Shown here: positions 17,926 through 18,167 of the stretch, one piece after another
Numbering within the stretch: position 1 is the stretch's first letter
Layout: each line of letters starts with the position of its first letter
Assembly: GCA_030141605.1 (NCBI GenBank)
Contig: JAQGDQ010000006.1
Coordinates: 1,061,501-1,125,500 of the forward strand
Reading direction: 5' to 3'
Source: Tubiluchus corallicola
Lineage: Eukaryota > Priapulida > Priapulimorpha > Priapulimorphida > Tubiluchidae
Length of the DNA: 64,000 nucleotides
Notes under the pieces: generated by a model
The model's input: the letters and a program-made list of their open reading frames with translations, nothing else
Databases searched by the model: none
What the model was told of the DNA's origin: nothing
Made by a program: the position numbers and the translations under genes

Positions 17926-18167
17926 TTAGATGGGCACGTCCCAGATCTCAGCAAGTAGCGGAGGCAGCTTGTGGTTGTGGAGCTTCAGCGAGAATAACAT
18001 CTCAGAATGTTCATTTGAAAATGTTCGAAGCTCTGTAAGTTTCATTAAGAGTCGCGCAAGGATGTTGGTTCCCTGAGGTCGCATTAGGGACGTGTATGTG
18101 CGCAGTGCGTCAATGTAGATATCCTGAATTTTTTCCACTTTTTTCGGGTCTATTAATGTAGGTCGCT
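17926..18167 (-). CDS. EcR: EcR exon 7: LBD helices 10-12 and stop
   Basis: Residues 351-430 then TAA at 17928-17926. Helix 10/11 reads [14 protein letters not shown], then [13 protein letters not shown] and the helix-12 AF-2 core AEIWDV. The receptor ends two residues later, with no F domain. His404 sits where arthropod EcR has the 25-OH-binding Asn504, 22 residues before Trp426; that matches the His-Trp pair of FXR and LXR. Glu424 supplies the charge clamp. Acceptor TTCTTTTTTCCAG. Confidence 0.93.

Follow-up and report, generated by a model that had tools for sequence, protein, structure and literature searches.

Which steroid was bound by the receptor ancestral to EcR and LXR/FXR, and which genes made that steroid, have been described as open questions (PMC8222990, PMC6170570). 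For a nuclear-receptor gene within the 64,000-nucleotide stretch of DNA analysed here (the window), an earlier note had proposed that its product joins an EcR-type pocket to an FXR/LXR-type His-Trp switch. We asked whether the histidine of this receptor marks a new combination or an old state, and which class of ligand the receptor would be expected to bind.

Gene structure and a second EcR-like gene

An independent rebuild from splice sites gave a gene of seven exons on the minus strand (25731-17926) that encodes 430 amino acids plus a stop codon (Table 1). Pfam recognizes zf-C4 and Hormone_recep in the protein and no further domain. The histidine and tryptophan codons of the earlier note, 22 residues apart, are exact in the rebuilt model, and its reading of exon 7 holds. 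Within intron 4, a perfect tandem repeat of two 58-base copies occupies window positions 20412-20528. Elsewhere in the window, an open frame on the plus strand (11902-12180) whose reading includes GVPQGSVIVHKLFLLYINDL resembles a reverse-transcriptase fragment and has no Pfam match.

Table 1. Exons of the receptor gene and codons of the two switch residues, in window coordinates. HvEcR, Heliothis EcR.
Feature	Position	Strand	Content
Exon 1	25632..25731	-	Start ATG at 25731, initial A/B region; GT donor GTAAGTAT; counterpart exon in paralog
Exon 2	25211..25393	-	A/B region and first zinc finger, P-box CEGCKG
Exon 3	21177..21317	-	Remainder of DNA-binding domain
Exon 4	20762..21006	-	Hinge and helix 1, including Glu212 (= HvEcR Glu309)
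Exon 5	20042..20200	-	Helix 3: Trp245 (= M342), Thr246 (= T343), Thr249 (= T346)
Exon 6	19552..19774	-	Helices 5-8: Arg286 (= R383), Ser287 (= V384), Gly301 (= A398), Tyr311 (= Y408)
Exon 7	17926..18167	-	Helices 9-12 and stop codon; acceptor TTTTCCAG; frame backed by paralog and pS/pN
His404 codon CAT	18009-18007	-	Column of HvEcR Asn504
Trp426 codon TGG	17943-17941	-	Helix 12, column of HvEcR Trp526

Searching the window's own genome (343.5 Mb in 2344 contigs) uncovered another intact EcR-like gene, located on the minus strand of contig C2055 (93944-82715; 426 residues; L051, L052), which also has seven exons with the same phases. The two genes are 77% identical over aligned codons, and their exon 7 sequences are 82% identical at the amino-acid level. 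Across 410 aligned codons pS is 0.85, showing saturation of silent sites, and pN is 0.16, showing that replacement sites are conserved; therefore the duplication is old and selection has kept both copies. The paralog carries both the His and the Trp, and matches the window protein at 15 of 15 compared pocket positions. Relatives were sought in viral and bacterial/archaeal genome contigs as well, where none was found, as expected.

The gene model is drawn solely from genomic DNA, so exon 7 might be part of a different gene or frame, or what is read as a gene might be a pseudogene. Either error is exceedingly improbable given that every intron is GT-AG with matching phases, the frame runs uninterrupted through all seven exons, and an intact paralog has the identical exon layout. 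The frame of exon 7 matches in the paralog, and its reading is safe because this exon is under strong purifying selection, with pS of 0.86 against pN of 0.11.

Kinship with EcR

The ligand-binding domain (LBD) is closest to the EcRs of Tribolium, Bovicola, Bemisia and Heliothis, with LXR next and FXR third; E-values are 3e-86 for Tribolium EcR, 5e-59 for LXR-beta and about 1e-41 for FXR, at 57%, 46% and 38% identity, respectively. The DNA-binding domain (DBD), an EcR-type C4 domain with P-box EGCKG, ranks insect EcR first (E 6e-44), then FXR (5e-39) and LXR (8e-31), and its best matches are the EcR DBDs 4umm, 1r0n and 2han (6e-44 to 2e-42). Thus, insect EcR (NR1H1; Tribolium 2nxx, Heliothis 1r1k/1r20) is the top match in both domains. 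In a tree of 12 sequences with column 504 left out, the paralog pair fell beside the insect EcRs with weak support (bootstrap 72, SH-aLRT 47), and an alternative tree holding the pair with LXR was not cleanly rejected (p-AU 0.067). By these comparisons the receptor is likely a member of EcR, which the tree alone does not prove.

EcR-type receptors outside insects are already a known kind. Homologs beyond the arthropods have been described in molluscs, annelids, nematodes, priapulids, tardigrades and further groups (Laguerre and Veenstra 2010, cited through PMC4388693; PMC8778615; PMC6170570; PMC13195034), and their pocket residues are reported to be conserved in part or in full (PMC8778615). 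Halloween genes were absent from the cycloneuralians searched in one of these studies (PMC6170570). The present receptor is a non-insect NR1H protein, as are these homologs. What is added here is a new member with a helix-11 His.

The helix-11 histidine

His404 pairs, in a gap-free alignment, with the Asn found in the EcRs of Tribolium, Bovicola, Bemisia and Heliothis, confirming its place in the column of Asn504, so that a known feature of insect EcR is absent from this receptor. Asn504 and its equivalents in several insects contact steroid and non-steroid ligands (PMC9920912), and docking ties Asn504 of insect EcR to the side-chain 25-OH of 20-hydroxyecdysone (20E) (PMC6322355). Comparing this column across the four insect EcRs and receptors whose letters were checked on PDB chains gave His in LXR-beta, FXR, TR-beta, VDR and ROR-gamma, Gly in RAR-gamma and Asn in the insect EcRs. 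Four other NR1-type genes of the genome have His in the column, which we read as two E75/Rev-erb-like genes (L029, L083), one HR3/ROR-like gene (L084) and another NR1-type gene (L021).

Each of the four insect EcRs has the Trp at the same distance of 22 residues, and therefore His alone differs. The earlier note's term "FXR/LXR-type switch" is misleading because the Trp and its spacing are found in every EcR compared and the His across much of NR1. Of the combination that it described, the polar EcR-type pocket of helices 3-7 and the helix-11 His and helix-12 Trp are indeed present, but the switch is not specific to FXR and LXR. Its suggestion of likeness to an ancestral NR1H state is supported for the His column, with Asn in insect EcR against His in LXR, FXR, TR, VDR, ROR and the four other receptors of this genome. 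Parsimony on the tree places two changes at column 504, His to Asn in insect EcR and His to Gly in RAR, and on present sampling makes His the putative ancestral state and Asn the derived one in the insect EcRs compared. Because most related receptors carry His, the most fitting reading of His404 is retention of an old feature, not a new combination.

Replacement of the Asn that binds the 25-OH in insects could also signal a preference for ecdysteroids without this hydroxyl, of the ponasterone A type. Phantom is the ecdysteroid 25-hydroxylase. Consistent with such a preference, insect EcR Asn504 contacts the 25-OH (PMC6322355), and phantom homologues are missing from the non-arthropod ecdysozoans and chelicerates searched (PMC6170570). 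We nevertheless regard this preference as unlikely, since His in this column is itself able to bind side-chain oxygens. In VDR, the 25-OH of calcitriol forms a hydrogen bond with His397, which our alignment places in the same column as His404; in LXR-beta, His435, likewise in this column, forms one with the epoxide oxygen of 24(S),25-epoxycholesterol. Besides stacking on Trp, a His at this position is therefore able to hold a side-chain oxygen, and because VDR His397 binds a sterol 25-OH, His need not imply loss of 25-OH recognition.

The ligand pocket

Pocket columns were numbered by HvEcR and anchored at N504; the assignment is right because this anchor independently recovers E309, T343, T346, R383, A398, Y408 and W526. 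In insect EcR, 20E is surrounded by Glu309/Arg383, Ala398, Thr343/346, Tyr408 and Asn504 (PMC6322355). The ecdysteroid hydrogen-bonding residues E309, T343, T346, R383 and Y408 are all kept (five of five) in both paralogs, along with W526. In contrast, LXR-beta has N, A, S, E and F at these five positions, so that equivalents of E309, R383, T343 and Y408 are lacking (N, E, A and F), and FXR retains R383 alone, without T343, T346 and Y408 equivalents or the beta-turn residues near 395-398. The LXR/FXR pocket residues on helices 3, 5 and 7 are not matched in the receptor, which has the EcR states at T343, T346 and Y408.

Differences from insect EcR lie at five pocket positions: M342 to Trp, V384 to Ser, A398 to Gly, N504 to His and C508 to Leu. 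Trp245 (window 20135-20137), in helix 3 at HvEcR Met342, is found in both paralogs and in none of the 10 other receptors compared, and is the most distinctive change after His404. The contact of A398 with ecdysteroid goes through the backbone. Trp342, Ser384, Gly398 and Leu508 may matter as much as His404, and could change the class of ligand.

These changes bring in the reading that the ligand has shifted, with the receptor acting as a sensor of sterols, oxysterols or bile-alcohol-like compounds through a His-Trp switch in the LXR/FXR style and no longer recognizing 20E. Several features point this way, among them His404 itself. LXR-beta (NR1H2) has His435/Trp457 in the same columns and a similar helix 10-12 text (LLMKL..LRT..HSE..LPPLL.EIWDV), and the receptor has the LXR-like stretches RFAHITEW and RPQG...LLMKL. 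FXR (NR1H4) has His447/Trp469 in these columns, the helix 5 Arg-Ser (RSA in both proteins) and Leu at 508, the latter two being the only FXR pocket matches in the receptor. The Trp at 342, shared with no compared receptor, would also fit a changed ligand, as would the lack of any KshA_C/Neverland-type match in the genome, a weak negative because exons split the domain. A shifted ligand is nonetheless unlikely, as both paralogs keep all five side-chain hydrogen-bonders for ecdysteroids, most of which LXR and FXR lack.

Other receptor and Hox genes of the genome

EcR is not the only receptor doubled in this genome, as COUP-TF-like (contigs C337/C1732), FTZ-F1-like (C1741/C1874), RXR-like (C1522/C1874) and E75-like (C520/C1095) genes are also paired, a pattern suggestive of duplication on a large scale or of the whole genome. 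Both RXR-like genes keep the helix-11 Cys that published bryozoan RXR1s lack. An RAR-like LBD exon (C552:231022-231267; L028) has Platynereis RAR as its closest solved relative; RAR is absent in arthropods and nematodes and present in the priapulid Priapulus (PMC6947571).

An estrogen-receptor-type gene (C859:433408-434367; L001, L038) has a DBD P-box EGCKA, and is perhaps intronless because its DBD and LBD share a single open frame of 445 amino acids. An LBD exon related to this gene lies on C2043 (L018). Among Hox genes, the genome has a single clear Abd-B-type gene, and a Hox-like homeodomain at C1986:123524-123709 (L055) is 63% identical to the Abd-B-like one. The RAR exon, the Abd-B-type gene and the helix-11 Cys of both RXRs are compatible with a protostome, perhaps a priapulid-like one, and a non-arthropod protostome is the most cautious placement of the animal. 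The assembly does not contain mitochondrial COX1.

Proposed function and significance

Taken together, the gene is probably a functional, non-insect EcR-type (NR1H) receptor, one of two old paralogs, that kept the ancestral NR1 helix-11 His where the insect EcR line took Asn, and that would most likely be partnered by RXR and gated by a polyhydroxylated sterol. The genome has two RXR-like genes with a complete helix 12 (L004, L005). The gene structure, the residues, the order of kinship, the paralog, the selection and the RXR genes are observed, and we infer the ligand class, the bond between His and ligand, the His-Trp coupling and the dimer partner in the following scheme. The receptor would act as a ligand-gated transcription factor in a heterodimer with RXR, and its ligand would be a polyhydroxylated sterol of the ecdysteroid type. 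Glu212 and Arg286 are predicted to hold the A-ring hydroxyls, Thr246 and Thr249 a ring hydroxyl, and Tyr311 the side-chain 20-OH. The terminal oxygen of the side chain would be held by His404, whose packing on Trp426 would then fix helix 12 in the active position.

A bolder proposal, which we consider doubtful, is that this slow-evolving, non-arthropod EcR pair combines an ancestral NR1H pocket with the His-Trp switch and answers a polyhydroxysterol hormone, making it a living stand-in for the progenitor of EcR, LXR and FXR. With insect ecdysteroid anchors and a vertebrate-type helix-11 His in one protein, the effect of the insect Asn on ligand choice can be tested by a single reciprocal substitution. 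The receptor is informative, too, on whether EcRs outside the insects respond to diacylhydrazine insecticides, which make use of Asn504.
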